Assembly: GCA_943736015.1 (NCBI GenBank)
Contig: OX031065.1
Span: 26,860,427-26,924,426 of the forward strand
DNA length: 64,000 nt
Direction: 5' to 3'
Origin: Tridacna crocea
Lineage: Eukaryota; Mollusca; Bivalvia; Cardiida; Cardiidae
Part shown: piece by piece, positions 41,303-63,475 of the stretch
How positions within the stretch are numbered: the first letter of the stretch is position 1
Layout of the letters: each line of letters opens with the position of its first letter
Notes under the pieces: generated by a model
The model's database searches: none
Told to the model about the DNA's origin: nothing
What the model saw: only the letters and a program-made list of their open reading frames with translations
Translations under genes and position numbers: made by a program

Positions 41303-41316
41303 GTAAGAAATGGTGG

Positions 41317-45625: not shown

Positions 45626-45639
45626 TCAAAAGTTTTATA

Positions 45640-45742
45640 GCCCCTTAGATTAAAGCCTTTTAAAAACATTGTGTTAAAAGCGGAAAATGCTGGTAACCAG
45701 CAATTTCTGCTTCTCGCACAAAGTTTCTACCATCCAGGGATC
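45640..45742 (+). mobile_element. H229 core fragment
   Basis: AAAGCCTTTTAAAAACATTGTG, GGTAACC centre, GTTTCTACCATCC. Confidence 0.65.
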
Positions 45743-46447: not shown

Positions 46448-46837
46448 ACAGTCTCATCCTAGTCTATTCTGTTCATATAAGCACTGGTATTGGCCAAAAG
46501 CATTCAAAGAGTTATTATTGTTGCTATGACTTTCATTGGATTAATTAGTCGTTGGGTGTGCCCCCACGGAGAGCCTCATAGAAAGTAATTCCATCCGACT
46601 GGTTGTATGTTTTTGTGAAAAATACTGGCGAAAATAAAGCAACCAAAAAAAACAGAAGAATTTTGATTGCTATACCATCAAGTCTTTGTTAATTACAGTG
46701 ATTAATCAAAATTTCTCTCCTCTATCTGTCAAACGGAAATACTCAGGGTTTAAACTACCATGAACTGGTTTCCCTGTTCATGTTGGGTAGAGAGAAAAAG
46801 ACATGGGTACCAGCTGTAAGCTCATACTACATGTTTG
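46448..46837. other. Unassigned intron
   Basis: Nothing recognised. Confidence 0.5.
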
Positions 46838-46895
46838 GTTGTTGATCAAGATTAGACTGCAGAGTATAAAGGCTAATCTTGAATCTTTGATGTCT
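46838..46895. mobile_element. Foldback family 2 core
   Basis: TGATCAAGATTAGACTGC and GGCTAATCTTGAATC. Confidence 0.62.
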
Positions 46896-46916
46896 TATTT
46901 GTTGTTGAGGGAATTT

Positions 46917-47030
46917 TTTATGGCTCTGTGGTAAGGTGTGGGAATTGTTACCTGGATGCCCTTAGCTCAATCCTAGCTTGAAACACTCAAGAATGTCCTT
47001 TGACAAGTAACTTCAGAGATAAAGTTAAAT
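46917..47030 (+). mobile_element. SINE head, family 1-like, decayed
   Basis: TGGCTCTGTGGTAAGG and TTAGCTCAATCCTAGC sit at A/B-box spacing; the body is short. Confidence 0.5.
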
Positions 47031-47097
47031 ACAGGTGAGAGCTAGGACATATAATTGATGAATTAGCGAGCTTTCAACATGATTACTTTAACTCTTT

Positions 47098-47312
47098 ACC
47101 AAACAATCCCTGGTTTTTTATGGCCCTTAGATGACATTTTGAAAACATTGTGGGAAAAAGAGAAAATGCTGGTAACCATCATTTTCACTTTTTCCCACAA
47201 TGTTTTCTACCCTGTTGGAAACAAATTTTAATTTTTGAGTTACGTATATTTTGTCATCTGCAAGTGTTTTCAATTTGAACCAGTGTAAAAGTTTGTTTGA
47301 TAAAGGGTTGAT
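47098..47312 (+). mobile_element. H229 subfamily B
   Basis: AAACAATCCCTGGTTTTTTATG left, CTACCCTGTTGGAAAC right; closing end TTGA. Confidence 0.9.
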
Positions 47313-47451
47313 AATGAAAGCGGGAGAAAACACTGCTTATTTGATCAATCAACCAATAAGGTATGATTCCTGCAAAGAATTAGCCTTTTGTCTCAGCCAT
47401 ATTTTGCTAAGATTGCAAATAGCTGAAGACTTTGTTTGTTCAATGCGGCCA

Positions 47452-47502
47452 ATAAATGATGATTATGATGATGGTGATGACCAACATGGTCATCATTTGT
47501 AA
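47452..47502. repeat. GATGAT-type simple repeat
   Basis: AATGATGATTATGATGATGG and related triplets. Confidence 0.65.
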
Positions 47503-47599
47503 TTAATATTAACATTGTAAAACAGACTGGAACTGTTCTATGAAACTCCTAGATCAAAACAAAGTGCATCTTAAAAGCTGTTTGACATCTTGCCGACAA

Positions 47600-47735
47600 T
47601 AATTCGAGATTTTGTATTACTGTTATAAAGATTGTTGGTGGAAAAAGGAGGAAAATTCTAGTATCAAGCTTTTTTCAGCTTTTTCAAAATGTTCTCCTCT
47701 ATTTTTGAAAATAAATCTCTTCATTTTAGCTTTGT
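47600..47735 (+). mobile_element. H229, old
   Basis: GATTGTTGGTGGAAAAAGGAGG and CAAAATGTTCTCCTCTATTTTTG. Confidence 0.45.
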
Positions 47736-47959
47736 CTGCAGTTTCTGTCTCCTTACCATATAGACCTGTTGTCGAAAGAGGCTTTTGTAGTATAGTGTAG
47801 ACTGCACTGTAGTATGATTCCTCATTAATTATTTTACTGTCCAATATTTGATTTTTCAATTACATCAGAATTATGACTGAACTGTTTCTTCATCCTAGAA
47901 TGGAACTATATTTGTAGAAAAATGAGATCATGTGATTTACTTACTATGTTCTGAAAGAG

Positions 47960-48118
47960 TTAGCTCTTTGCCATACGAAAAACTAATAGACTTGTCCAAA
48001 TCCAAAGCATTTAAAAGTAAAATACAATGTGGCACAAATGCTGGTATTCATCTATGAAAGAATGGAAAACAATTTGGGAAAAGGAGAAAATGCTGGTTAA
48101 CAGCATTTTCTCCTTTTT
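47960..48118 (-). mobile_element. H229 host copy, left piece, interrupted
   Basis: TAGCTCTTTGCCATACG to the right hairpin arm ATTTTCTCCTTTTT, where a 1.2-kb element breaks it. Confidence 0.88.
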
Positions 48119-49347
48119 ATACGCCCGTCGAAGACAGGACGTATTATGGGATCACCCGTGGCGGGCGGGCGTCGTCCAGTTCTTTGTCCGGAGCATATCT
48201 CCTAAACTATACTAGCTAGGGTTATGAAATTTCATGGGTGGATACATCTCATCGAGGATGAGTGCAGTGCACAAGAATCATAACTCTTGCTCGCTTAATT
48301 TTTCAGTTATTGCCCTTTGTTGTTTTTCATACTTGAATTTTGTCCGGAGCATATCTCCAAAACTATAGTAGCTAGGGTTATGAAATTTCATGGGTATATA
48401 GATCTCATCAAGGGGGAGTGCAGTGCACAAGAATCATAACTCTTGCTTGCTTAATTTTTGAGTTATTGCCCTTTGTTGTTTTTCATACTTGAATTTTGTC
48501 CGGAGCATATCTCCAAAAATATACTAGCTAGGGTTATGAAATTTCATGGGTGGATAGATCTCATTGACGGGGAGTGCAGTGCACAAGAATCATAACTCTT
48601 GCTTGCTTAATTTTTGAGTTATTGTCCTTTCTTTTTTTTCATACTTAAATTTTGTCCGGAGCATATCTTCAAAACTATAGTGGCTAGGGTTATGAAATTT
48701 CATGGGTGGATAGATCTCACCGAGGGGGAGTGCAGTGCACAAGAATCATAACTCTTGCTTGCTTAATTTTTGAGTTATTGCCCTTTGTTGTTTTTCATAC
48801 TTGAATTTTGTCCGGAGCATATCTCCAAAACTATACTAGCTAGGGTTATGAAATTTTATGGGTGGATAGATCTCATCGAGGGAGAGTGCAGTGCATAGGA
48901 ATCATAACTCTTGCTTGCTTATTTTTAAGTTATTGCCCATTGTTGTTTTTCATACTTGAATTATGTCCGGAACATATCTCCAAAACTATAGTAGCTAGGG
49001 TTATGAAATTTCATGGCTGGATAGATCTTACCGTGGGGGTGTGCAGTGCACAAGAATCATAACTCTTGCTTGCTTAATTTTTGAGTTATTGCCCTTTGTC
49101 GTTTTTCATACTTGATTTTTGTATGGAGCATATCTCCAAAACTATACTAGCTAGGGTTATGAAATTTCATGGGTGGATAGATCTCATCCATGGGGATTGC
49201 AGTGCACAGGAATCACAACTCTTGCTTGCTTTATTTTTGAGTTATTGCCCTTTGTTGTTTTTCATACTTGAATTTTGTCCGGTGCATGCCCCAGCTTTAC
49301 AACTTGGGGTAAGACGGGCGTATCTTGCGACAATTTGCCGCTCTTGT
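48119..49347. mobile_element. Tandem-repeat-bearing element with inverted ends
   Basis: ATACGCCCGTC (48119-48129) is matched inverted by GACGGGCGTAT (49313-49323). Between them GTCCGGAGCATATCTCC recurs at 48186, 48342, 48498, 48654, 48810, 48965, 49121 and 49276, a 155-156-bp tandem repeat of seven units. A CCCCA/TGGGG stem lies just inside the right end, and a further 24 bases ending CTCTTGTT come before the host sequence resumes. No transposase. Sequences of this look are widespread in bivalves to my knowledge; class not determined. Confidence 0.8.
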
Positions 49348-49409
49348 TCAAAATTGTTTTCAAAAAAGCCTTATCTGTCAATGTCAGTAATGGTGTGGCA
49401 AGGTATTGA
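49348..49409 (-). mobile_element. H229 host copy, right piece
   Basis: AATTGTTTTCAAAAAAGCC to GGTGTGGCAAGGTATTGAG completes the copy begun at 47960. Confidence 0.75.
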
Positions 49410-49794
49410 GGATAAGTAAAATAATGGAAAAAAAACAGAATTTAAAAAAAAATGTAAATGAAGAATGAAAATAATGAATTTCTGTAAATAATATAGGTTG
49501 TGAAACCTTAGTAACCAAAATCCTTGAACATAATAGCCAAAAAAACCTTAATTACAAAACTTGACAGCATTTATTTGGAATTCAATATCAAGGAAGGGCT
49601 GAGTTTTTTGTAATTTTCCTGATGATTTTTGAAATTATATGTGCTTGAGAAAATACTGTGACAGCTTTCAGTTTCATATGCAAAAAAGAAAAAGAGTAAG
49701 TTGTAGGCATGAATGTTTTGTAGAAGTACAGTTGTAGAGACAAATGTGGAAAAAAATGCAATTACTAATCAATTTATCCTCTACCTGACATGCC
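49410..49794. other. Unassigned intron
   Basis: A-rich start, otherwise nothing. Confidence 0.5.
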
Positions 49795-50001
49795 AATTTT
49801 AGGCTCTTCCATTTCAGCAGCAAATAAAGATATGATGTCAAAAATATGGACAAATGATGAAACAAATATCTGACTGAGTGGAAACCATTGTGAGAAAATG
49901 AGAAATTGCTTGTTACGAGCAATTTCTTCTTTTCCAACAATGTTTCCAAAAGCTGTCTGTTGTTGATAAGTCAAAATGAGTATCAATAGAGTAAAGGGCC
50001 A
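49795..50001 (-). mobile_element. H229 subfamily C-like, minus orientation
   Basis: GAGAAATTGCTTGTTACGAGC core; ATGAGTATCAATAGAGTAAAGG is the inverted C left end. Confidence 0.75.
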
Positions 50002-50036
50002 ATACAATTTTTCCATGTTTCACCATACTTTTGTGA

Positions 50037-50240
50037 TAACTAACTCTGACCCTCTCAACAAATAACCCTGAGAGGAGAAAGGTTATTGAAAACATGGTAG
50101 AAAAGGAGGAAATGCTGGGTTACTTGTATTTTTTCCATTCTCCACAATATTACTATAACGATATTACTACCATTTCAAAGGCAGAAATATTTATCAGGAT
50201 ATCACATATCATATCATTTACAGTTAATTTTGTCTCTCTC
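50037..50240 (+). mobile_element. H229, old
   Basis: CCCTGAGAGGAGAAAGG, GAAAACATGGTAGAAAAGGAGG, centre GGGTTACTTG; right end lost. Confidence 0.55.
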
Positions 50241-50249
50241 TAAAACATT

Positions 50250-50478
50250 TTAACCCATTACCACACAACCCCTACTTTTGACGCCCCTGAGAAAGAAGCC
50301 TTTAGAAAACAGCATGGGAAAAGGAGAAAATGCTGGTAATTAGCGTTTTCTCCTTTTCCCACAATGTTTTCTACCCTGCACTAGACAAATTTCAATTTTT
50401 CAGTCACTTTTATTTTGTCGTCTGCAAATCCTTTCGATTTGGACAATCCTAAAATTTTGTTGTTTGGTAATGGGTTAA
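50250..50478 (+). mobile_element. H229 subfamily A, full length (229 bp)
   Basis: GACGCCCCTGAG group; left arm AGCATGGG has a 2-base change not mirrored on the right. Confidence 0.93.
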
Positions 50479-50847
50479 CTTTGTTATGCTGCTCAACTTA
50501 TGCAAAAACCTTGTAAATTTGGAGCGATTTTACATTAAGATTTAATTTGTTTGAAAACATCATTGTGAAACAAGAAATTACACATTTCTATTGAATCCCG
50601 TCTGTTTTCAAAGTGCAAGACAAAAAAAAGTTGAGAATGTGTATAGATCAGGAAGAAAGGCATATCATTTACATTTGAGATTAAAGCCTTCATTTCAGTG
50701 TAGCTAATAGATCTAGATGAGGAAAGTAAAATGATGAATACCAAGAACAAAATAATTATTATGATAATCTTTGCTTGATTTTTTTTGCTGTAGCCTTTCT
50801 TCTGACATACCAGAAAAAAAATGTCGAAAATGGACAATGTTGTTTGG
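50479..50847. other. Unassigned intron
   Basis: Reverse-strand ORF (50535-50837) is hydrophobic low-complexity sequence (IIIIIILFLVFIILL); taken as chance. Confidence 0.5.
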
Positions 50848-51077
50848 TTAATTCATTGCCAAACGACAAAAATTTAGGTTTGTCCAAATCAAAAGCATTT
50901 GCAGAAGACAAAATGAAAGTGACTGAAAATTTGAAATCTGTTTTGTGAAGGGTAGACAACATTGTGGGAAAAGGAGAATGTGCTGGTTACCAGCATTTTC
51001 TCCTTTCCCCACAATGTTTTCTAAATGGCTTCTTTCTTGTGGTCGTCAAAAGTAGGGATCATGTGGTAATGGGTTAA
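50848..51077 (-). mobile_element. H229 subfamily A, full length
   Basis: TTAATTCATTGCCAAACGAC; hairpin with few one-sided changes (GGAGAATGTGC). Confidence 0.92.
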
Positions 51078-51401
51078 GACTTGATTTCATTCAATGGCAC
51101 TTGCATTAAAAGGCCAACTGCTGTAAGAGACCACCTCTCAGTTCCTAAACAATTCATGGTGTTTCTGTATACAGATTTGGCTGTAGATGTACTAAAAGGC
51201 TTATTTCAAAGTAAAGAATGCAAATTGCTTGATGGTAAGATACAGAAGCTTAATTAAACTCAGCATGTTAGATAAAGAAAAAAAATGATACAGGCTTGTC
51301 AATTGTTTCAGAGGATCTCCTTTTGAGACAAGAGGGAGAACACCTGAGGTTCTGTAACAAAATATTCACAAAATACTTGTATTACAGTACCTTTTTACCT
51401 G
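51078..51401. other. Unassigned intron
   Basis: Nothing recognised. Confidence 0.5.
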
Positions 51402-51434
51402 TTAAATCCTTTACAAGACTGTACTTTATCTTAA
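51402..51434. repeat. TTAA-bounded 25-bp sequence, left copy
   Basis: TTAA, then ATCCTTTACAAGACTGTACT, then TTATC and TTAA; repeated on the far side of the H229 that follows. Confidence 0.8.
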
Positions 51435-51660
51435 CTCTTTACCAAACAACAAAATTTTAGAATGTCCAAATTGAAAGCATTTGCATAAACAAAATAAATG
51501 TTACTCAAAAATTGAAATTTGTTTCCACCAGGAAAGAAAATATTGTGGGAAAAGAGAAAATGCTGGTTACCAGCATTTTCTCCTTTTCCCACAATGTTTT
51601 CAAAAGGCTTCTTTGTCAGGGTCATCAAACGTAGGGATTATGTGTGTGGTAATGGGTTAA
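51431..51660 (-). mobile_element. H229 subfamily A, full length
   Basis: Flanked on each side by a 25-bp sequence that is itself bounded by TTAA (see findings). Confidence 0.92.
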
Positions 51661-51689
51661 ATCCTTCACAAGACTGTCCTATATCTTAA
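51657..51689. repeat. TTAA-bounded 25-bp sequence, right copy
   Basis: Differs from the left copy at three positions and separates two minus-oriented H229 copies. Confidence 0.8.
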
Positions 51690-51912
51690 CCTTTTACCAC
51701 ACGGCAAAGTTTTAGACTTACCCAAATTTAAAGTATTTGCAGATGCCAATTCCGAAGTGGCTCATATGGCGTAATTTTGCTTTGACAGGGTAGAAAACTT
51801 TCAGGGAAAAGGAGAAAATGCTGGTAACCAGCATTTTCTCCTTTTCCCACAATGTTTTCAAAATGCTTCTTCCTCTGGTTATTTAAAGTCGTCAATGTGT
51901 AATAAAAGGTAA
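51686..51912 (-). mobile_element. H229 subfamily E
   Basis: GCCAATTCCGAAGTGGCTCATATGG left part; plus-type centre GGTAACC; end decayed. Confidence 0.88.
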
Positions 51913-52115
51913 AAGGCCTACTGGAAAAAGGTACTGAAAACAAATTATTATTATATGGGAAAAAAGAATTGCACATAGCCAGTATTTTCTCCCTTTCCTG
52001 CAATGTTTTACACTCTGTTGAAGACAAATGCTTATCATTGAGCTTTTTCCATTTTTTGTCTGTCAGTGATTCCAATTTGTAAAGATCTAAAAAAAATATG
52101 TCCCTTGAAAGTCTT
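51913..52115 (+). mobile_element. H229, old
   Basis: TATGGGAAAAAAGAATTGC, CCTGCAATGTTTTACACTC and TTTGTCTGTCAGTGATTCC. Confidence 0.6.
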
Positions 52116-52121
52116 TACCAG

Positions 52122-52349
52122 TTAACCCTTTACTACACAATGACGACTTTTAACGACCCTGAGGAAGGGGCCTTTTGAAAATATGTGGGAAAAGGAGAAA
52201 ATGCTGGTAAACAGCATTTTGTTCTTTACTCACAATGTTTTCCTACCCATCAAAGAAAAATTTCACTGTTTGAGCCACACTGAAATTGTCGTCTGCAAAT
52301 GCTTTCAATTTGGATAGGGCTAAAGTTTTGTCGTCTGGTAAAGGGTTAA
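52122..52349 (+). mobile_element. H229 subfamily E, full length
   Basis: Best view of E: ACAATGACGACTTTTAACG left; CATCAAAGAAAAATTTCAC and GGATAGGGCTAAAG right. Confidence 0.92.
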
Positions 52350-52517
52350 AACTTTTTGACCAATCAATTTTGAAAGCATTTGCAAGTTGCTTGAGGCTTA
52401 AATGATGGCACCTGTCTTGCAAAAGGAGTGAAACATGGTAAGAAAAGTAGAAAATGCTTGTAACCAACATTTTCTTCTTTTTCCACAATGTTATGAAAAC
52501 CTCTTCTGGGTCATTAA
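52346..52517 (-). mobile_element. H229 host copy, left piece, entered by the next element
   Basis: CAATTTTGAAAGCATTTGC to CTCTTCTGGGTCATTAA. Its end is found after 52740. Confidence 0.82.
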
Positions 52518-52740
52518 CCCTTTACCACACAAGGACGACTTGACGACCCTGAGAAAAAAAGCCTATAGAAAACATTGAAGGAAAAGGAGAAAATGCTGGT
52601 GATCAGCATTTTCTCCTTTTCCCACAATGGTTTCTACCCTTCACGAAACAAAGTTCAAGTTTTTAGTCACTTTTATTTTGTCATCTTCAAATGCCTTCGA
52701 TTGGGACAAACCTAAAATTTTGTTTTTGGTAATGAGTTAA
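52514..52740 (+). mobile_element. H229 subfamily A, inserted in another H229
   Basis: Both TTAA ends are kept; centre GGTGATC. Confidence 0.92.
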
Positions 52741-52772
52741 TTTGAAACAGGGTTGTTTTGTAAGGGGTTTGT
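52741..52772 (-). mobile_element. H229 host copy, right piece
   Basis: AAACAGGGTTGTTTTGTAAGGGG continues the copy that stopped at 52517. Confidence 0.7.
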
Positions 52773-52812
52773 ATCTTATCCCAAGGCAGTTTTTCATATA
52801 ATGTAGCAGACA

Positions 52813-52890
52813 TCTTGAAAATGATGTTGCCAACAGAGAAATTGCTTGTAACAAGTAATTATCTCCTTTTGCAACAATGGTTTCTTGTTT
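52813..52890. mobile_element. H229 subfamily D/C hairpin fragment
   Basis: GAGAAATTGCTTGTAACAAGTAATTATCTCC. Confidence 0.6.
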
Positions 52891-52993
52891 ATTCATGTAT
52901 AAATGCTAGATTTATTGCAACTTTCCCTTTTTTGAACAAGGATGTTTTTAAAGTCGGTTGCCACAAATTTATTTGGTGGAACAGTTTCTTGAC

Positions 52994-53207
52994 TGAACAC
53001 TTTACCAAACAATCCTAGTTCTAACTTTCCTGAAAAAGCGCTGTTGAAAATATTGAGAGGAAAGTGCATCTAGCATTTTCTCTCTTTACGACATTGTTTT
53101 TTACCCTGTCAAGGAAGGAAATCTTCATTGTAGCTTCATTTGTATTCTTGCTCAAAGTGTTTTCAATTTGGTCCAGTCCAAAATTTTGCCATTTTGAAAA
53201 GGGTTAA
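52994..53207 (+). mobile_element. H229 subfamily B, left arm shortened
   Basis: AAACAATCCTAGTTCTAAC left; GTCCAGTCCAAAATTTTGCC right. First of a chain of three. Confidence 0.82.
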
Positions 53208-53426
53208 CCCTTTACCCTGTGGCAAATTTTTTGGACTTATCCAAATTCGAAGCACTTGCAGACCACTCTTTTATAGAAGGTCAAAAAAGTTTTCTGATAG
53301 GGTAGAAAATTTCATGGGAAAAGGAGACAATGCTGGTTACTAGCATGTTCTCTTTTTCCCTCAATGTTTTCAAAAGGCTTCCTCCTCAGGTTTGTTGAAA
53401 GTCATCATCATGTGGTAAAGGGTTAA
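53204..53426 (-). mobile_element. H229 subfamily E, middle of chain
   Basis: CCCTGTGGCAAATTTTTTGG, ATAGGGTAGAAAATTTCATGGG; end CATCATGTGGTAAAGGG. Confidence 0.9.
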
Positions 53427-53649
53427 CTCATTTCGAAACAACAAAATTTAGGACTGATCCAAATTGAAAGCATTTGCAGACAACAAAATAAAAACTGAAC
53501 ATTTGAAACTCTTGTTGTGAATGGTTAGAAAGCATTGTGGTAAAAGGAGAAAATGCTGGTAACCAGCATTTTCTCCTTTTCCCACAATGTTTTCTAAAGG
53601 TTTCTTTCTCAGGGTGGTCAAAAGTAGGGATTGTGTGGTAATGGATTAA
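53423..53649 (-). mobile_element. H229 subfamily A, end of chain
   Basis: Perfect core with plus-type centre GGTAACC; end GTGTGGTAATGGATTAA. Confidence 0.92.
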
Positions 53650-53827
53650 TCCATTTTCATATCAGTTGGAACTTCTAAATTCAGACCTTCAGTTACTCCT
53701 GGTGACAGCTTTGAAGTGAAGCAATAGTTTCGTTTTCTACATTATACACATTGAAAGCATTTTCCTTTCTGTCAAATATTTTCCTTTGTGGTATTTTTAC
53801 TCATTTGTTATAATGTTGCAATGGATG

Positions 53828-53877
53828 CAATCCTGTAGTCTTGCCCAGATTCAAAGTATTTGCAGACAACAAATTAA
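53828..53877 (-). mobile_element. H229 host copy, left piece
   Basis: TTGCCCAGATTCAAAGTATTTGC to ACAACAAATTAA. Confidence 0.65.
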
Positions 53878-54061
53878 CCCATTACCACACAATCCCTACT
53901 TTTGATGACCCTGATAAAGAAGCCAGCATTTCTTCCTTTTCCCACTATGTTTTCTACCCTGTACAAGACAAATTTTAAACTTTCAGTCACCTTTAGTTTG
54001 TCGTCTGCAAATGCTTTTAATTTGGAGGAGTCTAAAATTTTGTTGTTTGGCAAAGAGTTAG
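53874..54061 (+). mobile_element. H229 subfamily A, left arm deleted, inside another copy
   Basis: AAAGAAGCCAGCATTTCTTCC shows loss of the left arm; right part complete, ending TTAG. Confidence 0.9.
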
Positions 54062-54185
54062 ATTGTGGGAATTTTTTTTTTGAAAACGTAGAAATCTATG
54101 TAGAAAATGTGGGATGTCAGTATTTTCTCCTTTTCCCACAATGTTTTTGAAAGCTCTTTTCTCTGAGGTGTGATAAAGGGTGAAG
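54062..54185 (-). mobile_element. H229 host copy, right piece
   Basis: GTAGAAAATGTGGGATGTCAG to GTGTGATAAAGGGTGAA. Confidence 0.7.
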
Positions 54186-54264
54186 AATCTGAGATATGTA
54201 CAGTTAGACAGATTGATTGCATTTCACCCTTAGAGGGCCTTTTGCCACCAAAGTTGCCTTTATG

Positions 54265-54345
54265 TTTGGTGTAGATCAAGATAAGACAGCACAAAATGTG
54301 CAGTCTGATTTTCTATCTATACTGTCACTCTGGACTGAGACCTTG
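54265..54345. mobile_element. Foldback family 2 copy
   Basis: GATCAAGATAAGACAGCACA and TGTGCAGTCTGATTTTC. Confidence 0.78.
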
Positions 54346-54469
54346 TGAACAATAGCAATCTTGTCATTTTATTAGGATCATATTTCTAGTATGGAATTGA
54401 CAGTTGGGTTTATTGGGTGCTCTGAAACTGGCTCCCAGGCAGCTGAGCACGACTCGAGGACCTTTTGCA

Positions 54470-54545
54470 GACATTGTAGGTTAGGATCAAAATGCACCTT
54501 CTCTGCAGTCAGATCTTGAACCCACACTGTCCCATTAGAAGGTAG
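54470..54545. mobile_element. Foldback family 2 copy, decayed
   Basis: GGTTAGGATCAAAATGCACC and TGCAGTCAGATCTTGAACC, 150 bp from the previous copy. Confidence 0.65.
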
Positions 54546-54646
54546 AAAAAAAATTTCCCCCCAGAAAATATCTTTTGACATAGCAAAATTTGTGTTTTTA
54601 TGATCAGTTTGATAAGTTTTGTTTCATTTGTTTAGTAGGTGAAGAG

Positions 54647-54850
54647 TTAAATCTGTACCAAACGACAATTTTAGCCCTGTCCAAATTGAAAGCATTTGCA
54701 ATTTTCAATGTGGCTCAAATGTTGCAATTGTTTTTTAATAGAGAGGAAAACATTGTGGAAAAAGGAGAATTTTCTCCTTTTGCCACAATGTTTTCAAAAG
54801 ACTTCTTTTCAAGGGTCGTCAAAAGTCATCATTGTTTGGGAAAGGGTTAA
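54647..54850 (-). mobile_element. H229 subfamily E, hairpin tip removed
   Basis: GGAGAATTTTCTCC: the ATGCTGGTTACCAGCAT tip is gone symmetrically. End GTTTGGGAAAGGGTTAA. Confidence 0.92.
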
Positions 54851-55070
54851 CCAAATGACAAAACTTTACACTTGTCCAAATTGAAAGCATTTGCAGACTG
54901 AACAAAATAAAATTGACTCAGAAATTGAAATTTGACTTTAGAAGAATAGAAAACATTGTGGAAAAAGAAGAAAATGCTGGTTACCCGCATTTTCTCCTTT
55001 TCCTACAATGTTTTTAGGCGGATTCTTCCTCTGGGTCGTACAACCCAGGGATTGTTTGATGAAGGGTTAA
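54847..55070 (-). mobile_element. H229 subfamily A/B, joined on shared TTAA
   Basis: The left terminal repeat is shortened to TTAACCAAATGAC. Confidence 0.9.
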
Positions 55071-55310
55071 TATACATGTAAGGATTTTCATCCCTACAGG
55101 AGTTTGAAAGATAATATTAATTTATTCAGTTTTGAATTTCATATCGGTTTTTCTTATCTTTAATGAGTACAGCTGTAGCTTCCAGTTTAATGGAATTATC
55201 ATTTAACATTTCAAGATACGCCTGCCATTTTTTTTCCTCCCTGCATTTTGTAGATAAAACCTTTCTTATGTAATAGTTGATTAGCTTTATAGCCTTCCTT
55301 ATAAAATTCA
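55071..55310. other. Unassigned intron
   Basis: The reverse strand reads an 85-codon Lys/Asn-rich ORF (55126-55383) that runs into an H229; not protein-like enough to call. Confidence 0.45.
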
Positions 55311-55515
55311 TTAACTGTTTACCAAACTGTCTAATGTTTGAAAGACCTTCACAAAGAAGGCTTTTTAAAATATTCGGTGTCAAGAGAAAATGATGGTAAC
55401 CGGCATTTTGTCCCTTTTTCCCATGATGTTTTCGATCATTTCAAAGACCAGAGTTTCATTTTAGAGATACTTCATTTTTCGCCTGCAAATTATTCTAGTT
55501 TGGACAAGTCTATTT
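55311..55515 (+). mobile_element. H229, diverged
   Basis: TTAACTGTTTACCAAACTG, centre GGTAACCGGC, TTGGACAAGTC; right tip lost. Confidence 0.75.
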
Positions 55516-55779
55516 CACCGAAGAAATATGTCTATGGTATTTCTTTCGGATGGTTAGTGGTGTTTTCTGCATTATTCCCACTGTAATTCTGTTATTATAG
55601 GACAGCCTCAGCCCGTAAAAACAGTACTAGAAGTATTAGTTTTGAAAGTTTTTTTCACTTCCTGCTTTGCCTGTGGTAGATTACATGTATCTCACTCGAA
55701 ATTGAAAAATACAGACAAAACATTGTTCTAAATTCTATGCCATCTGATGTTGATCTATAGGCCCTAGTCTGCGGAAGCT

Positions 55780-56008
55780 TTAACTCTTTACTACACAATC
55801 CCGACTTTTAACGACCCAAAGAAAGGAACCTTTTGAAAACATTGTGGGAAAAGGAGAAAATGCTGGTAACCAGCATTTTCTCCTTTTCCCACAATGTTTT
55901 CTACCCTTCAAAAAACAAATTTCAATTTTTCAGTCACATTTTATTTGTCGTCAGCAAATGCTTTCAATTTGGACTAGTCAAAAATTTTCTGGTGTGGTAA
56001 AGAGTTAG
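55780..56008 (+). mobile_element. H229 subfamily A, full length (229 bp)
   Basis: Perfect hairpin; closing TTAG. Confidence 0.93.
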
Positions 56009-56034
56009 TTTGGTATCCTTGACATTTTATACAT

Positions 56035-56200
56035 ATCCCTTTACCACACAGTCCCCAGTTTTAAATTACCATTAGGAAGAAAACTTGTGAAAGTGTGGTG
56101 GTGAAGAAGGAGAAAATACTGGCAACCAGTACATATTGTTCTTTTCCCACAGTGTTTTCAAAAGCCTGTTATCTTTGAGATAGTTAAAAAATGTTTCCAA
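56035..56200. mobile_element. H229 foldback-like copy, diverged
   Basis: CCCTTTACCACACAGTCCCC left, then after the hairpin TTTTCAAAAGCCTGTTATC, an inverted left flank. Confidence 0.6.
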
Positions 56201-56252
56201 AAGCATACTTTCTCATAGTGTCATTCAAGTTCAAGATTTTTAGGTAAAATTG

Positions 56253-56483
56253 TTTACCCTTTACCACACAATAAAAATTAGATGTCATAAAATTGAAAGC
56301 ATTTGCAGATAAGAATTCAATAAGCATGGTTTAAGATACGAAATTTGTTGATAACTTGGTAGAAAACTGCATGGCAATAGAAGAAAATGCTGGTTACCTG
56401 CATTTTCTCTTTTTCCCTCAACGTTTTCAAAAGGTTTCTTCCTCAGGGTCATGGAAACTGAAACTTTTTGGTCGAAGGGTTAA
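56253..56483 (-). mobile_element. H229 subfamily E
   Basis: CTTTACCACACAATAAAAATTAG, ACTTGGTAGAAAACTGCATGG; centre GGTTACC. Confidence 0.85.
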
Positions 56484-56999
56484 AGGTTGTTTCAGCACCT
56501 TTTGAGCAGCCAACTCACAGAAATGCCATTACTTCACCTCTCCATCTATGAAATTCTTTGAATCTTTTTAAAAAGATAATTCGCCTTTTTTTTTTCACAA
56601 ATATTTTTATAATTAATTGGCATTCGAATTCATAATTACATATGTAAGCAATCAAGAAGGAAAATCAAAATAAGCTATTGGTTTTAGATTTGAATCTTGA
56701 TTGCCTGAATTTCCAGAAATTCTTAAGGAAAAAATGAATATTTTATCTGTGAAATAGTCATTTTGGATGTTGATTTTAAAGAACTTTGAAAAAAAAAATT
56801 ATGATGGCGTAATAAAAAGAAAATAAACATATCAGGTCTCATATAATAACCATACGTAATTGCCCCCTTTTCCTCTATTAATTGATTTTTGCAGAGGGAA
56901 GATAATTATTTCTTGGCACTTGTCCACAACCAAGATAGGTCTAGAGCACAAAATTAGCTGGCAAAAAAGCAACTTGTTTATGCTAACATTATTAACTCT
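56484..56999. other. Repeat-free intron block, candidate regulatory region
   Basis: TATAATTAATTGGCATTCG, TTCATAATTACATATG and TCTATTAATTGATTTTTGC are clustered homeodomain-type motifs in 0.5 kb with no H229, in the most H229-dense part of the window. Confidence 0.45.
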
Positions 57000-57130
57000 T
57001 CACTTGCTGAGGTTAATATCAGGTGCTTGTTGCAGATAGTGTATATCAAAGATCAGACTGCACAGAATGTGCAGTCTGATCTTTGATCTACACTGTCCGA
57101 TAATATGAAAAATATTGGTAGAAGGGGTTC
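57000..57130. mobile_element. Foldback family 2 copy
   Basis: AAAGATCAGACTGCACA / TGTGCAGTCTGATCTTT with AGTGTATATC / GATCTACACT outside; starts TTAACTCTTCAC. Confidence 0.87.
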
Positions 57131-57374
57131 TTGGATTTGCAATTATTTTTGTCTTGTGCATAGTTTGTTCATGTCGTTTTTGTTTGTACGAAAGACTGAA
57201 GGATTAATGAAGAGGAATGAAGGAAGTTGGGATATAGGAACTGTTGTGTAATCTCTTTCATTGTGGTTTCTGGGACTTATTTTATGGTTGTTTGAGTTTT
57301 GTATTATGAAAATTAATAAATGGAGACTGTGTAAGTGAAATTTGTGGTAATACTAGTTAGAGGTTTTGATTTAC

Positions 57375-57594
57375 TTACTCTTTAACAAACAACAAAATTT
57401 TAGACTTGACCAGATTGAAAGCATTTGCAGACGAGAAAATAAAGGTGACTCAAAAATTAAAACTTGACTGTAGAAGACCGTGTGGGAAAAGGAAAAAATG
57501 ATGGTTACCAGCATTTTCTCCTTTTCACACAATGTTTTCAAAAGGCTTCTTCTTCTGGATCATAAAAACTAGTGATTGTTTGGTAAAGGGATAA
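57375..57594 (-). mobile_element. H229 subfamily B
   Basis: GACTTGACCAGATTGAAAGC; AACTAGTGATTGTTTGGTAAAGGG. Confidence 0.9.
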
Positions 57595-57729
57595 CAAATA
57601 CATAGTTTGAAAAACGGAACAGTCACAGTCCACAGCCATAAATTTTAGTTGAAGTGGATATTCTAATAAGTTTTAATGTTTTCTTATGTAAAACCAATTA
57701 TTGAGGCAGGCTGTTTCTAAAAAAATGTT

Positions 57730-57932
57730 TTAACTGTTATCCAAATGACAAAATTTTAGACTGGTTCAAATTGAAAGTACTTGCAGACAACAAGTTAAAC
57801 ATAACTCAGAAATTGAAATTTGTTTCCAACAGGATAGAAATACATAGTGAGAAAAGGAGAAAATCCTGGTTACAAGCATTTTCTCCTTTTCCCTTTAAGG
57901 TTTTCAAAACACCTCAATCTCAGGGTCATTAA
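57730..57932 (-). mobile_element. H229 host copy, left piece, entered at an internal TTAA
   Basis: TTAACTGTTATCCAAATGAC to TCTCAGGGTCATTAA; the final 25 bases lie at 58159-58183. Confidence 0.92.
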
Positions 57933-58158
57933 CCCTTTACCATACGACAAGATTTTTGCCCCTTACAAATTGCAAGCATTTGCAGACGACAATTTCAATA
58001 TGGCTCCAACGGTGCAACTGTTTAGTGATCCGGTAGAAAACATTGTGGAAAAAGGAGAAAATGCTGGTTAGCAGCATTTTCTCCTTTTCCCCACAATGTT
58101 TTCAAAAGGCTTCTTTCCAAGGGTCGTCAAAAGTCGTCATTGTGTGGTAAAGGGTTAA
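57929..58158 (-). mobile_element. H229 subfamily E, inserted copy
   Basis: GACAATTTCAATATGGCTCC; centre GGTTAGC; GTCGTCATTGTGTGGTAAAGGGTTAA end. Best preserved minus E copy. Confidence 0.93.
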
Positions 58159-58183
58159 AATCAGGGATTTGGTAATGGGTTAA
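58159..58183 (-). mobile_element. H229 host copy, right tip
   Basis: ATCAGGGATTTGGTAATGGGTTAA completes the copy broken at 57932. Confidence 0.85.
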
Positions 58184-58330
58184 GTGATAGATGGGATGGA
58201 AAAAGGCCTTATGGAAATAATGGAAAGGTATCTTTGCAGAATTTGAAATAAAATAATACCATAGAAATAAAGCTAATTTAATCTTGTAACAAACACTAAC
58301 ATTTTGCAATGACTCTGTGAAAGATGGAAT

Positions 58331-58413
58331 TGAACCCATTACCACACAATCCCTACTTTTGATGCCCCTGAGAAAGAAGCCTTGAAAGTTGTCATTGTGT
58401 GGTAAAGAGTTAA
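58331..58413. mobile_element. H229 mini-foldback, 83 bp
   Basis: An A left end (AATCCCTACTTTTGATGCCC...AAGAAGCC) meets an inverted E left end (TTGTCATTGTGTGGTAAAG) with the hairpin gone. Confidence 0.88.
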
Positions 58414-58638
58414 CCCATTACCACACAATCCCTACTTTTGACGACCCTGAGAAAGAAGCCTTTAGAAAACATTGTGGGAAAAGGAGAAAATGCTGGTAAC
58501 CAGCATTTTCTCCTTTCCCCACAATGTTTTCTACCCTTCACAAAACAAATTCCAAATTTTCAGTCACTTTCCTTTTGTCGTCTGCAAATGCTTTCAATTT
58601 GGATAAGTCTAAAGTAGTGTTGTTTGGTAAAGAGTTGA
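58410..58638 (+). mobile_element. H229 subfamily A, full length (229 bp)
   Basis: Closing site TTGA; near perfect hairpin. Confidence 0.93.
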
Positions 58639-58729
58639 AAAGAATATTGCTCTTTTGGTAATGCTTTCAAATACAAACCATATAATTTAGCCATAATTAT
58701 GTTTTCCTCTGATAAATTATGCTCTCAAA

Positions 58730-58949
58730 TTAACTCTTTACCAAGCGACAAATTGTTGGACCAGTCCAAATTGACAGCATATCCAGATGACAAAATAAAT
58801 CTGAATCAAAAATTGAATTTTGATTTTGGAAGGGTAGAAAACATGGTGGGTAAAGGAGAAAATTCTGGGTACCAGCATTTTCTCCTTTTCCCTCAATGTT
58901 TTTCGAAAGGCTTCTCTCCCAGGGTCAGGATTGTGTGGTAATGAGTTAA
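58730..58949 (-). mobile_element. H229 subfamily A
   Basis: AGTCCAAATTGACAGC; centre GGGTACC; right part shortened at GGGTCAGGATTG. Confidence 0.9.
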
Positions 58950-59159
58950 GCAAGTCTATAATTTGTTGTTTAGTAAGAAAAAAACAAAACAAAATTTTTG
59001 ATATTTTTCTTTTACCAATTTTTTTTATGCTTTTTGCATGCAGTGTAGGTTAAGATCAGACTAGAAAGAGTGGTTAGTATGCATATTCTAGATTCATACT
59101 TATAATTCCATTATGACATTGACCTAGAATGCCAACAACATAAGCCCTTGGGGTTAAAA

Positions 59160-59340
59160 CCAATCAAAACTGTAAGATTTTTTAAAACAATGTGGGAAGA
59201 ATAAATGCTGGTATTTTGTCCTTTTCCCAAAATGTTTCCCATCCTATTACAGACAACAGCATGATTTGAGTAGTATTCAAGTAGTCTTATTGGAAATGTG
59301 TTTATTTTTGACAAGTCTGAAATTTTTGTTGTGCAGTTAG
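59160..59340 (+). mobile_element. H229, old
   Basis: AACAATGTGGGAAG, CCAAAATGTTTCCCATCC, TTGACAAGTCTGAAATTTTTG. Confidence 0.6.
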
Positions 59341-59414
59341 GAGAAGCTCCTTTGCAATGCTGATCGAGATACTGTTTTGTTCCAACTACATGGTGGTAAA
59401 AAGCCTTTAAATAC

Positions 59415-59631
59415 TTAACCCTTTCCCAAACGACAAATTTTGGACTCTTCCAAACTGAAAAAGTTTGCAGATGACAATTTTAGATTTTGAGAAAATGGCA
59501 GAAAGTTCTCAAAACACTGTGGGAAAAGGAGAAATTGCTCGTTATGAGCAATTTCTCCTTTTCCCACAGTGTTTTCAAAAGACTTTTACTGCAGACACAT
59601 AAAAACCAGGGCTTGTTTGGGAAAGGGTTAA
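59415..59631 (-). mobile_element. H229 subfamily D, near full length
   Basis: Perfect stem with core GAGAAATTGCTCGTTATGAGC; a short deletion precedes the left arm (TTCTCAAAACAC). Confidence 0.93.
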
Positions 59632-59776
59632 ACGCTGGGAATCAGCACTTTGTTTCTTTTTCTCAATTTTGATAGACTCTCACTCTGTGAAAATTAAACG
59701 CAATGAGCCACATTTAACATGCTCAAAGTGTCTTGGCTTGGACATAGACACAATTTTGTTGTTGCGATAGGGTTAA
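59628..59776 (+). mobile_element. H229 right part, diverged
   Basis: GCTGGGAATCAGC, CAATGAGCCACATTTAAC and GCGATAGGGTTAA. Confidence 0.6.
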
Positions 59777-60039
59777 GTGGTAAAAAATTAAATTAACAGG
59801 CTAAGCACAGCTGATCCAGGGCGCCCAATAAGTGGAACAGAAATAATTAATTTATACTTGATTACAACCAGTCAAGCAATTAGCATTGTTTAAGAGTAGC
59901 CATGTTGGATGTCTGGTCGCCTGGTTTTTAGCTGGTTCCTACTCTCTCATGTTCGAAAATGTTTACGTTAGGGTTGTGAAAGTGTTTACAGGTGATTGAA
60001 AGATATGACTGGGGTATTTCTTTTGAAGTGTTTGATGGT

Positions 60040-60200
60040 TTAACCTTTTACCAAACAATCCCTGGTATTTTAATGACCCTTTGGAAAGGAGCCTTTTGAA
60101 AACATTGTGGGAAAAGGAGTAATTTTTTTCCCATAATGTTTTCTACCCTAACAACACAAAAGTTCACCATTGGAGGCACATTGAAATTCTGGTTCATTAA
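60040..60200 (+). mobile_element. H229 host copy (B left, E right), left piece
   Basis: AAACAATCCCTGGTATTTTAATG; hairpin tip lost; GGCACATTGAAATTCTGG ends at TTAA where two further copies sit. Confidence 0.88.
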
Positions 60201-60425
60201 CTCATTACCATAAGACAAAATTTTAGGTTTGTCCGAATCGAAAGCATTTGCAGACGACAAAATAAAAGTGACTGAAAATTTTTAATTTGATTTAGAAGGG
60301 TAGAAAACATTGTGGGAAAAGGCGAAAATGCTGGTAAACCAGCATTTTCTCCTTTTCCCACAATGTTTTCTAAAGGCTTCTTTCTTAGGGTCGTCAAAAG
60401 TAGGAATTGTGTGGTATTGGGTTAA
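60197..60425 (-). mobile_element. H229 subfamily A, inserted copy
   Basis: 229 bp with an extra base at the centre (GGTAAACC). Confidence 0.92.
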
Positions 60426-60658
60426 CTCTTTACCACACAATGACAACTTTTAAGGCTTCTGAGGCAGAAGCATTTTAAAAATATATAAAAATATATTGGG
60501 AAAAAGGAGAAAATGCTGGTAAGCAGCATTCTTCTTTTCCTACAAAGTTTTCTACCCTATCAAAGAAAAATTTGTCATTATAGCCACTATGAAATTGTTG
60601 TCTGCAAATGCTTTTAATTTGGATAGGTCTAAACTTTTGCTGTGTGGTAAAGGGTTAA
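60422..60658 (+). mobile_element. H229 subfamily E, second inserted copy
   Basis: ACAATGACAACTTTTAAGG left; AATATATAAAAATATATTGGG is a local expansion of the left arm; GCTGTGTGGTAAAGGGTTAA. Confidence 0.9.
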
Positions 60659-60703
60659 TGATCTTAATTTGGACAGAGCTAATACTTTTTTCATAAGTAA
60701 TTT
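60659..60703 (+). mobile_element. H229 host copy, right piece
   Basis: TGATCTTAATTTGGACAGAGC continues the copy broken at 60200. Confidence 0.78.
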
Positions 60704-60707
60704 GGGT

Positions 60708-60921
60708 TTACCTGTAACCAAAGAAAGTTTTGGTCTAGACCAAATTGAAAGGATTTGTAGAAGAAAAAATAAATGTGAATCCTATGCTGAAATTTGTTTT
60801 CATATAGAATGAAAATAATGTTGGAATAGGAGAAAATGTAAGTTACTGGCATTTTCTTCTTTTTGCAATGTTTTCCATAGCCTTCTCTTTCAAGATCAAT
60901 CTTGGGATTGTATGGTAAATT
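60708..60921 (-). mobile_element. H229, diverged
   Basis: GGTCTAGACCAAATTGAAAGG, AATAGGAGAAAATGTAAGTTACTGG, GGGATTGTATGGTAAA. Confidence 0.75.
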
Positions 60922-61760
60922 CCAAAACTCTAGAAAATCTGTCAGACTGCTTGTTTTAATGATATCTCAAGACTGTTTGTTTTAATGATATCTCAAAAGA
61001 GATTGAAAATGGGTCATGTCCAGGCAAAACTAGGTCACTGGGTCAAATCTTAGAAAAACTTTTGTCTATGCTGCAGAAGCCACATTTACAGTCCAAAACT
61101 CTTGAAAATTGGTCACACTCTTTCTGAATGATACTTCAGACAAGTTTGAAAATGGGTCATGGGAGGTAAGAAACTAGGTCACTAGGTCAATCTCAGGAAA
61201 AGTTTGTGTATGCTCAAGAAGCCACATTTTCAGTCCAAATTTCTTGAAAGTGGGTCAAACTGTTGTTCTTAATAATATCTTGGACTAGTTTAAAAATGGG
61301 TCATGTCGGGTCAAAATGAGGTCACTTGGTCAAATCTTAGAAAATTCTTGTGTACACTCCAAAGGCCACATTTTCAGTCCAGAACACTGGAAAGTTGGTC
61401 AAAATGTGATATCTTGGACTATTTCAAAAATGGGTTATGCTGGATCAAAAACTAGGTCGCTCTGTCAAATCTTAGAAAAACCTTGTCTACATTCTAGAGG
61501 CCACATTTTCCGTCTAATACTTATGAAAGCTAGAATCTTTTTCTCTACGATATCTCGTATGAGTTCAAAAAAGGGTCATATGTGATCAAAAAGTAGGTCA
61601 CTAGGTCATATCTTAGAAAACCTTGTGAACATGCAAGAGGCCAAAATTTCAGTCAAAATATGATGAAAGCTAGTAGATTGTTTGTCATGATAACTTGCAA
61701 GAGACTGAAAATGGGTCCTGTTTGTTCAAAAGATTTCCGAATATCATTGCCCTCTTGTTA
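60922..61760. repeat. Array of a 141-bp tandem repeat
   Basis: The phrase AAAATGGGTCAT or close variants recurs at about 61011, 61153, 61298, 61432, 61573 and 61713 (spacing 134-145). Each unit also has TAGGTCACTAGGTCAAATCTTAG and GCCACATTTTCAGTCC. The array ends ATTGCCCTCTTGTT against an H229 half. Probably the body of a mobile element; similar repeats are common in molluscs to my knowledge. Confidence 0.85.
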
Positions 61761-61857
61761 AGAATAGGAGAAAACACTGGTTACAAACAATATTTTCTTT
61801 TCCCACCATATTTTCAAAAGAGTCATTGAAGGTCAGGATTGTGTGATAAAGGGTTAA
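61761..61857 (-). mobile_element. H229 right half
   Basis: It starts in the left arm (AATAGGAGAAAACACTGG); the outer left part is missing beside the 141-bp array. Confidence 0.78.
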
Positions 61858-61880
61858 TCTGTGATCAGTTCATTAAAGAG

Positions 61881-62110
61881 TTAACTCTGTACCACACAAT
61901 TCCGACTTCTAATAACCCTGAGAAAGAAAGCCTTTGAAAACATTGTAGGAAAAGGAGAAAATGCTGGTAACCAGCATTTTCTCCTTTTCCAACAATGTTT
62001 TCTACCCTTTCCAAATCAAAATTCAAGTTTTGATACACATTTATTTTGTTGTCTGCAAATGCTTTCAATTTGGACTAGTCCAAATTTTTTAATTTTGGTA
62101 AAGAGTTTAA
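61881..62110 (+). mobile_element. H229 subfamily A, full length
   Basis: CTCTGTACCACACAATTCCG; the arms match over the core; end GGTAAAGAGTTTAA. Confidence 0.92.
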
Positions 62111-62623
62111 AAAAGCTTTTATCATCTTGATGGTAAACAGAAGTGTAACATAATGCATGAAATAAACTTGATCAAGGTTAATTTTTCATACTTTGGAAAT
62201 GTTGCTACATAAAAGTTTAATGTGATAAGACGATTATGATTCAGGGAAAATTTCTGATACTTTCAAAGTGCTATTTGTGAAAGGGTTTGAGTTGAAAGGC
62301 AGATATAAAGGACTGAATGACAGATGGACAGACAGACACAGACAGAATGATGAGTTATCATCAATTAGAGATTGAAAATCATTGCTATATAACTTACACA
62401 TCCCATAAAATTGTAGTTTAACTTTATTTTGAACTTTATATTCTTCAAATAGGTTGTGAAATACTCCTGTCTGAAGATAATGGAACTTTCATCATTAAAA
62501 CACCTGCTTATCTATTAATTATATCATTAATTTGGTATTTTCCTTTGCTTGCCAAGCAACAGTGATATTGAACCCGTATTGCTTGTAGATACAGCAATTT
62601 ATATTGACTGAGATGGCGGCAAT
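62111..62623. other. Unassigned intron
   Basis: Only the GACA simple repeat recognised. Confidence 0.5.
62319..62346. repeat. GACA-type simple repeat
   Basis: GACAGATGGACAGACAGACAC within otherwise plain intron. Confidence 0.65.
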
Positions 62624-62857
62624 TTAACCAATTACCACACAATCCATAGTTTTGATGCCCCTGAGAAAGAAGCCTTTGGAAAACATTGTCGGAAATGGAG
62701 AAAATTCTGGTAATCAGCATTTCCTCCTTTTCCCCTTTTCCCACAATGTTTTCTGCTCTTCACAAAACTAATTTCAACTTTTCAGTCACTTATTTTGTTG
62801 TCTGCAAATGCTTTAAATTTGGACCGGTCTAAAATTTTGTCGTTTGGTAATGAGATG
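62624..62857 (+). mobile_element. H229 subfamily A, full length
   Basis: The right arm contains a short duplication (CCTTTTCCCCTTTTCCC). The last TTAA has decayed to ATGA. Confidence 0.9.
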
Positions 62858-62908
62858 AAACAATTGTTGTTTACAGTAAAATTCTCAATTTGTATATCTG
62901 AAGCTCTT

Positions 62909-62939
62909 TTAACCCTTTACTGCACAATTCCGACATTAA
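62909..62939 (+). mobile_element. H229 left tip, broken by next copy
   Basis: TTAACCCTTTACTGCACAATTCCGACATTAA. Confidence 0.75.
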
Positions 62940-63147
62940 CTCTTTACCAAACGACGAATGAAAGCATTAATTTTGCAGACAACAAAATAAACGCAATGTG
63001 AAAATTGAGATTTGTTTCCATCAGAGTAAAATACATTATAGGAAATGGAGAAAATGCTGGTAACCTGCATTTTCTCCTTTTCCCACAATGTTTTCAAAAG
63101 GCTTTCAAAAGGGTGGTGAAAACCAGGGATTGCACAGTAAAGGGATA
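62936..63147 (-). mobile_element. H229 subfamily A/B
   Basis: CTCTTTACCAAACGACG; AACCAGGGATTGCACAGTAAAGGG. Confidence 0.9.
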
Positions 63148-63214
63148 AATTGTCATCTGCAGATCTATACTTTCAATTTGGACAGGGGTAAAGTTTTGCC
63201 ATTTGGTGAAAAGG
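63148..63214 (+). mobile_element. H229 right-end fragment, subfamily E
   Basis: TTGTCATCTGCAGATC, GGACAGGGGTAAAG; possibly the far end of the copy starting at 62909. Confidence 0.7.
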
Positions 63215-63242
63215 TTTATGAAAACATTATTGTTTCTTCTTA

Positions 63243-63475
63243 TTAACCCTTTACCACATAATGATGACTTGAAACAACTCTGGAAAAGAGGCCTTTTGAA
63301 AACATCATTGAAAAAGGAGAAAATGCTGGTAACCAGCATTTTCTCCTTTTTCAATGATGTTTTCTTCCCTATCAAAGGAAAATTGCACCATTTAAGCCAT
63401 GTCGAAATTGTCCTCTCCAAATGCTTTCAATTTGAACAAGTCTAAATAAAATTTTGTGGTCTGGTCAAGAGTCAA
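63243..63475 (+). mobile_element. H229 subfamily E with a mirrored stem variant
   Basis: Arms read AACATCATTGAAAAAGGAG and CTCCTTTTTCAATGATGTT: several substitutions, each matched on the other arm. It sits 65 bp upstream of the zinc-finger exon. Confidence 0.92.

Follow-up and report, generated by a model that had tools for sequence, protein, structure and literature searches.

In teleost MITEs, the fold-back structure is reportedly tied to amplification (the hairpin or snapback model). Small piggyBac-like MITEs with TTAA target sites and CCC(T)-type ends, similar to the element considered here, have been described in Acropora corals as CMITEs (PMC2872659). The left and right ends of piggyBac contain 19-bp palindromes, and each of the two transposase monomers contacts the palindromic part of the end through its cysteine-rich domain (PMC11707139). 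Template switching between the arms of an inverted repeat is described as homogenising the arms, and interstrand switching as inverting the spacer (PMC8604942). It can also set compensatory changes at once, although the evidence for maintenance by this process has been called circumstantial (PMC8794818).

In the window, that is, the whole 64-kb stretch of Tridacna crocea DNA that was analysed, a palindrome at positions 63298-63364 forms the core of an element of about 229 bp with TTAA-flanked ends of the CCCTTTACC type. The consensus obtained from extended copies had sharp borders and ran from TTAACCCTTTACCA through the core (consensus positions 56-122) to TGGTAAAGAGTTAA, with a total length of 229 bp and TTAA on either side; the median length of a full-length copy was 226 bp. 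TTAA was present within 12 bp of both ends in 108 of the 200 full-length matches, the chance value being about 0.10 per end. The terminal inverted repeats, TTAACCCTTTACCA and TTAACTCTTTACCA, have a CCC/CCY-type start; family C has CCC at both ends and the right end of family A is CTC, so the CCY rule is not strict. The element is small and does not code for a transposase. The TTAA near both ends, the CCC/CCY-type termini and the small non-coding body thus identify it, at the level of sequence features, as a piggyBac-like non-autonomous element (MITE) with an unusual palindromic core. The features of the locus are as follows.

63243..63246, plus strand: TTAA, left target-site copy, read from the sequence
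63247..63471, plus strand: element copy around the palindrome, with left end CCCTTTACCAC; consensus, boundaries and ends were read
63298..63330, plus strand: left palindrome arm with T8C, G9A, G11T and G13A, by comparison with the family arm
63331..63331, no strand: central (loop) base A (in the family sample, A in 157 and T in 24 of 190)
63332..63364, minus strand: right palindrome arm carrying all four of these changes as well, by comparison with the family arm
63472..63475, plus strand: TCAA, probably a decayed right TTAA, judged against the consensus
1279..63474, no strand: span of the 91 window copies counted (palindrome and at least one flank; deduplicated nhmmer set)

The core (inner 31 bp, up to two mismatches) was found at no fewer than 420,929 places in the 1.05-Gb genome, and the reversed control gave 0. 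The parts beside the core are non-palindromic and were used as a record of descent. The element was very dense in the window, where 225 nhmmer matches summed to 31 kb of 64 kb; this sum counts the core on both strands, and the true share is lower. Three larger imperfect inverted repeats (58466-58902, 20189-20382 and 45507-45726) had a core copy at each end and are apparently pairs of elements inserted close by in opposite orientation. The sole open reading frame of at least 150 amino acids listed in the window (bacterial code), at 63456-63908, adjoins the 63298 element; its Cys/His spacing resembles a C2H2 zinc finger by eye, and it had no Pfam match. None of the Rfam models matched the window at the gathering score, which ruled out a structured RNA of a known family.

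The palindrome at 63298-63364 is perfect, with a length of 67 bp (33+1+33) and arms that are 100% complementary. Compared with the family arm GAAAACATTGTGGGAAAAGGAGAAAATGCTGGT, with arm positions counted from 0, it carries T8C, G9A, G11T and G13A, each on both arms, and has no one-sided change. The mirrored stem substitutions that the earlier note reported at 63294..63367 were therefore confirmed. As single-stranded DNA, the palindrome is predicted to fold into a full-length hairpin of -36.3 kcal/mol; shuffles of the same sequence had a mean of -6.9, and none of 200 folded as stably.

The exact 61-bp type of this copy occurred only once genome-wide. Among 100 listed rows of three- and four-change arms, those with all four changes came from 6 palindromes, and the 63298 copy was the only one of these with a mirrored four-change arm. 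The same rows included the exact three-change pairs C3:51323851 and C9:55056425, as well as C2:27465514, a three-change pair with one extra change. Besides the 63298 copy, a genome search detected T8C, G9A and G11T on both arms of three palindromes, L051-L053. The flanks of these three and of the 63298 copy were 34-43% apart and nearer to the family consensus than to one another, and this divergence ruled out that the TCATTG copies form one subfamily; L051 grouped with a subfamily having a one-sided central change. When the right flank of the 63298 copy was used as a query, 40 of 2,828 candidates were scored, namely the copy itself and 39 relatives at 82-89% identity. None of the 38 relatives on C1-C17 coincided with an exact ATCATTGR arm among the arms listed (coordinates compared by eye); the other relative is on C19, beyond the listed part of these arms. 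As far as could be tested, the four mirrored changes are private to the 63298 copy.

Smaller mirrored variants had also been proposed for 4154 and 19418 (CACTGTG), for 28880 and for the C and D cores. Positions 4154 and 19418 are element starts, and the corresponding palindromes at 4209-4275 and 19473-19539 each have one mirrored change (T7C). In the copy for 28880, mirroring turned out to be incomplete. The changes of the C and D cores are mirrored as proposed, with additional one-sided changes in some of the window copies.

4209..4275, plus strand: copy with one mirrored change (7C), an inherited subfamily marker by stem comparison and flank kinship
19473..19539, plus strand: copy with one mirrored change (7C), the same marker on the same grounds
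28937..29003, plus strand: copy for 28880, with 0A and 8A mirrored and two one-sided changes, by stem comparison
30254..30320, minus strand: C-type core, 7C and 25T mirrored, position 30 differently changed on each arm
37717..37783, plus strand: C-type core, 7C, 25T and 30T mirrored, one one-sided change
59510..59576, minus strand: C-type core, 7C, 25T and 30C mirrored, two one-sided changes
33919..33985, minus strand: D-family core, 20T and 25T mirrored, positions 13 and 30 differently changed on each arm, one one-sided change
44748..44814, plus strand: D-family core, 13C, 20T, 25T and 30C mirrored, four one-sided changes

For the most part, the CACTGTG variants and the C and D core changes were inherited.

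The stem changes were then counted in a population of copies. The nhmmer search gave 718 matches, from which 143 with an incomplete palindrome, 256 with the palindrome only (presumably for the most part reverse-strand matches of the same copies) and 18 exact duplicates were dropped, leaving 301. Removal of 20 by place left 281, and removal of 30 found by exact core match left 251; the counts and early clusters based on the 301 copies were discarded as biased by exact-core-match loci and both-strand duplicates. The 33 stem pairs of the 251 copies contained 1,429 one-sided cells (731 + 698), 148 mirrored cells and 79 cells changed differently on both arms. For the population, this result goes against the earlier note, which had named mostly one-sided stem changes in many copies as evidence against its interpretation. 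When arms were re-paired among copies of like arm divergence, 89.8 mirrored cells were expected (sd 8.3), and 148 was reached in none of 2000 rounds. After exclusion of the 31 copies carrying mirrored 7C, 13C, 20T, 25T or 30C, 73 mirrored cells remained against 68.5 expected (sd 7.1; 583 of 2000 rounds reached 73). Thus, the mirrored excess is carried by subfamily markers. A general arm-correcting process was ruled out, since the unmarked copies fit independence. An earlier run on 240 unmarked copies, in which some places were counted twice, gave 84 mirrored cells against 65.5 expected in flank-divergence strata (17/2000) and against 78.0 when the same copies were stratified by arm divergence (492/2000); the result relied on is that of the deduplicated, arm-stratified test.

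At least one one-sided difference was present in 244 of the 251 copies, and copies without near kin (flank distance of at least 0.3) had on average 9.48 such differences in 33 pairs. In pairs that were nearest by right flank, the stem distance was about half the left-flank distance (0.068 vs 0.151; 0.220 vs 0.395). In an earlier comparison, stem divergence was 3-fold below that of the flanks, a difference that looked like protection and is partly located in subfamily-variable flank columns; the lower stem distance may come only from flank columns that vary between subfamilies, or the stem may be protected to some degree. Several one-sided changes were asymmetric between the left and right arms of the 251 copies (7C 15/4, 10A 17/3 and 32A 14/5). 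Left 7C and left 32A showed no clustering by flank. For left 10A, 11 carriers had sufficient flank for comparison, and the nearest kin was also a carrier in 4 of them (0.57 expected; 26 of 2000 shuffles), so that this one-sided change looks inherited.

Analysis of flank kinship in the 191 copies with enough flank showed that the nearest kin of a carrier was also a carrier in 15 of 15 cases for mirrored 7C and in 11 of 14 for mirrored 25T. Both changes follow kinship and are therefore inherited subfamily markers. The consensuses of families A (61 copies), C (13) and D (7) were derived from the complete deduplicated set of 281 copies, which contains the core-matched loci; members of C and D were picked by markers on either arm, and those of A by flank identity. 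Within each consensus, the two arms were identical to each other. Families A and C differed by 25% in the flanks and by 3 mirrored stem pairs, A and D by 34% and 4 pairs, and C and D by 42% and 3 pairs, with 0 one-sided pairs in every comparison. Accordingly, every stem difference between the family sources is a mirrored step, a rule that is not absolute in view of the inherited-looking left 10A. Cluster B differed from A by 23-24% in the flanks and at 0 of 66 stem positions; it was built on core-matched loci and did not reappear at four members in the unbiased set. The suggestion that the palindrome is selected may apply at the family level, where A, C and D differ by mirrored pairs only at 25-42% flank divergence, and selection in mobile lineages is probably also needed for such mirrored-only family stems.

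Rare mirrored types were counted by hand from the match rows as perfect 61-bp palindromes with A at the centre. Contig C1 contained 21 copies with mirrored T11, 4 with C8 and 2 with G8T11, and the whole genome contained 1 with C8T11, 4 with C8A13, 3 with T11A13 and 1 with A8T11A13. In the copies fetched, the flanks of the same type were 29-45% apart for C8A13 and 30% for G8T11. One pair of T11A13 copies was 17% apart and the others 38-42%; for mirrored T11 (4 of 21 compared), one pair was 10% apart and the remainder 25-32%; for mirrored C8, one pair (L061/L063) was 5% apart and the remainder 18-34%. Since L061 and L063 share mirrored C8 on such close flanks, some mirrored types are inherited. 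A separate group combined mirrored C8 and T11 with a one-sided change beside the centre (GGTATCC) and is an apparent subfamily with a broken centre (C1:58345743, C6:35854725, C7:37924508, C15:34342053, C17:35535143 and C17:39826353).

Apart from the central base, the palindrome reads the same as its reverse complement, so an in-place inversion would be visible only there. The central base in 190 safely oriented copies was A in 157, T in 24, G in 8 and C in 1. The frequency of T was 4.4 times the mean A-T transversion (2.9%) at 40 other A/T stem sites (binomial 1.7e-9) and was weakly above that of the highest other site, a subfamily marker (P 0.03); this comparison with stem sites describes the 190-copy sample. 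Genome-wide, with the right flank fixed and the context otherwise exact, central T was found in 3,517 copies and A in 38,301. Clustering of central-T copies by flank was not significant (6 vs 2.98 expected; 255 of 2000 shuffles). The share of T rose with flank divergence: it was 0.065 and 0.077 in the lower two of four divergence bins, compared with 0.200 and 0.180 in the upper two. It did not follow the count of one-sided changes in the stem (0.09, 0.18, 0.13, 0.12), and T-centre copies did not have fewer one-sided changes (5.38 vs 4.79). The central A-to-T excess is apparently due to in-place inversion of the loop.

One explanation of these data is that all mirrored types come from source elements and were spread by transposition, the arms being coupled by two-step selection for the palindrome. 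Such inheritance is true of mirrored 7C and 25T, agrees with the purely mirrored differences between the consensuses A, C and D, and accounts for the L061/L063 pair. As the only source of mirrored types, however, it is unlikely: the rare types are mostly found on unrelated flanks, the 63298 type is unique with its right-flank kin (40 of 2,828 candidates scored) 11-18% away, the exact ATCATTGR arm was present in 0 of 38 kin among the arms listed, and the central A-to-T excess is not predicted.

Independent recurrent mutation could also be considered, with hot sites, CpG decay after T8C, a mirrored T11 background and chance among about 420,000 copies producing the same change twice. We modelled independence with site-specific rates and an age spread taken from 219 unmarked copies at 30 arm positions. 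The model gave 0.006-0.011 copies of C8A13 (4 found), 0.05-0.10 of T11A13 (3 found), about 1e-4 of A8T11A13 (1 found) and, as a rough genome-wide value, 3.5e-7 to 6.4e-7 of the 63298 four-change type (1 found). For mirrored T11, 13-23 copies were modelled genome-wide, whereas 21 were found on C1 alone. The else-exact counts were 31,466 for the reference and 1,389 for T11 on the left only, of which 99 were on C1; if the right-only count is assumed to be like the left-only one, about 4 mirrored T11 copies would be expected on C1 under independence vs the 21 found. The exact-context counts show an excess of arm-shared changes over independence. The factors of the model are rough, since one-sided T11 was underpredicted 2-3 fold. 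In addition, T8C creates a CpG, so that A9 could arise separately on each arm, and mirrored T11 and C8 backgrounds exist; the 63298 type is therefore less improbable than modelled. In a rough hand calculation, single-site rates multiplied together account for how often the three-change arm occurs by itself; one-sided C8 is common on mirrored T11 backgrounds, and the mirrored cells of unmarked copies fit chance. However, even if T11 was already mirrored at the outset, the presence of A13 on both arms and the absence of one-sided changes would still need explaining, and together with the modelled values this makes independent mutation a very unlikely origin of the 63298 type.

Gene conversion between copies, in which a broken palindrome would take its repair template from a different copy, so that mirrored cores pass from flank to flank, is compatible with the same mirrored type on unrelated flanks, and the stem distance of nearest-flank pairs, about half that of the left flank, leaves it some room. 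It is nevertheless highly improbable, because random donors would mostly be ordinary and would restore the common core rather than a type present one to four times, and mirrored donors would not be preferred over one-sided ones. Least probable of all is a sequencing or assembly artefact in which hairpin-induced errors homogenise the arms or flip the loop base: hairpins are hard templates and the assembly is the sole source of the data analysed, but one-sided differences were kept in 244 of 251 copies, and the higher central T share in flank-diverged copies is not expected of an artefact.

We propose, with a probability of roughly 0.6, that the 63298 copy arose by a rare template-switch event in the core of a MITE, with selection keeping the palindromes of mobile lineages perfect. 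Homogenised arms and an inverted spacer are the traces that template switching in a hairpin leaves behind, and the copy was interpreted on this basis. Once inserted, most copies acquire changes on either arm separately, as seen in the population. The core may fold into a hairpin during replication or repair, and on rare occasions synthesis would switch template and copy one arm into the other. A single event could replace most or all of an arm, so that changes of one arm become mirrored and other one-sided differences vanish; a switch through the opposite strand would invert the single loop base from A to T, as the T excess suggests. The four changes of the 63298 copy would represent a single event of this kind. 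In mobile lineages, the palindrome would also be kept perfect, most likely by selection, and the family sources would change only in mirrored steps, each of which could be made at once by template switching. The interpretation in the earlier note is thus partly supported: correction of the arms against each other suits best the 63298 copy and the mirrored types recurring on unrelated flanks, with the apparent loop inversion as an independent line of support, and is not a general rule. The lack of a mirrored excess in unmarked copies (73 vs 68.5) counts against the template-switch explanation, as do the missing relation of the central T share to one-sided stem changes and the weak T excess over the highest other site.

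Searches for intermediate cases indicated that homogenisation is rare. Among 100 listed palindromes (of 412) with two inner one-arm changes, none was mirrored at both sites. For changes at positions 5 and 12, 2 of 98 listed palindromes gave paired matches, and one was a true pair: L071 (C1:23888486) had three mirrored changes (0, 5 and 12), none one-sided, and a flank diverged by 31%, whereas in L072 (C1:50506738) position 12 alone was mirrored, position 5 having a substitution in one arm and a deletion in the other. At such a low rate in ordinary copies, template switching can hardly keep the sources perfect alone, and selection in mobile copies likely supplements it. It is distinctly unlikely that the palindromes of mobile lineages stay perfect over 25-42% flank divergence without selection, solely because one arm templates the other often enough, perhaps in connection with transposition. 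If templating alone suffices, the family would be a self-proofreading DNA hairpin evolving only in mirrored steps. With regard to the hairpin or snapback model of teleost MITEs, the inherited-looking one-sided left 10A speaks against arm copying as a necessary part of every transposition. Under the preferred combination of rare template switching and selection, the 63298 copy is probably the product of an already known mutation process, which can be followed unusually well here.

The survival of perfect stems under mutation is an open question, and about 420,000 near-identical palindromic cores in one genome, with non-palindromic flanks as clocks and a record of descent, provide a means of addressing it. 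Most copies are presumably dead and free of selection. How often arms are homogenised and loops inverted can thereby be counted directly and, by comparison of dead copies with source lineages, separated from selection. In the limited literature collection searched, we found no study that had measured homogenisation of the arms for a family of MITEs.

By analogy, the closest elements are the coral CMITEs (PMC2872659), whose core is likewise described as more conserved between families than the ends and as common to several families. The CMITEs are about 100 bp long with an estimated 1,600 copies, whereas the element described here is about 229 bp long and has far more copies; the main text of that report mentions neither a palindrome nor a hairpin, and the likeness of the cores is one of description. 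Template-switch mutation, or quasipalindrome correction, in which one arm templates the other, is characterised in PMC8604942 and PMC8794818 by clustered multi-base changes, arm homogenisation and, with interstrand switching, spacer inversion; the footprints of homogenisation and of spacer inversion were both observed here. There, the process is described in yeast coding genes and RNA genes, whereas here it would concern a dispersed repeat with a very high copy number. The ends of piggyBac and piggyBat (PMC11707139) offer a precedent for a palindrome being under selection while an element is mobile; compared with the 19-bp end palindromes of piggyBac, the palindrome described here is 67 bp long and internal. 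The element offers a model for MITE cores that are better conserved than the ends.
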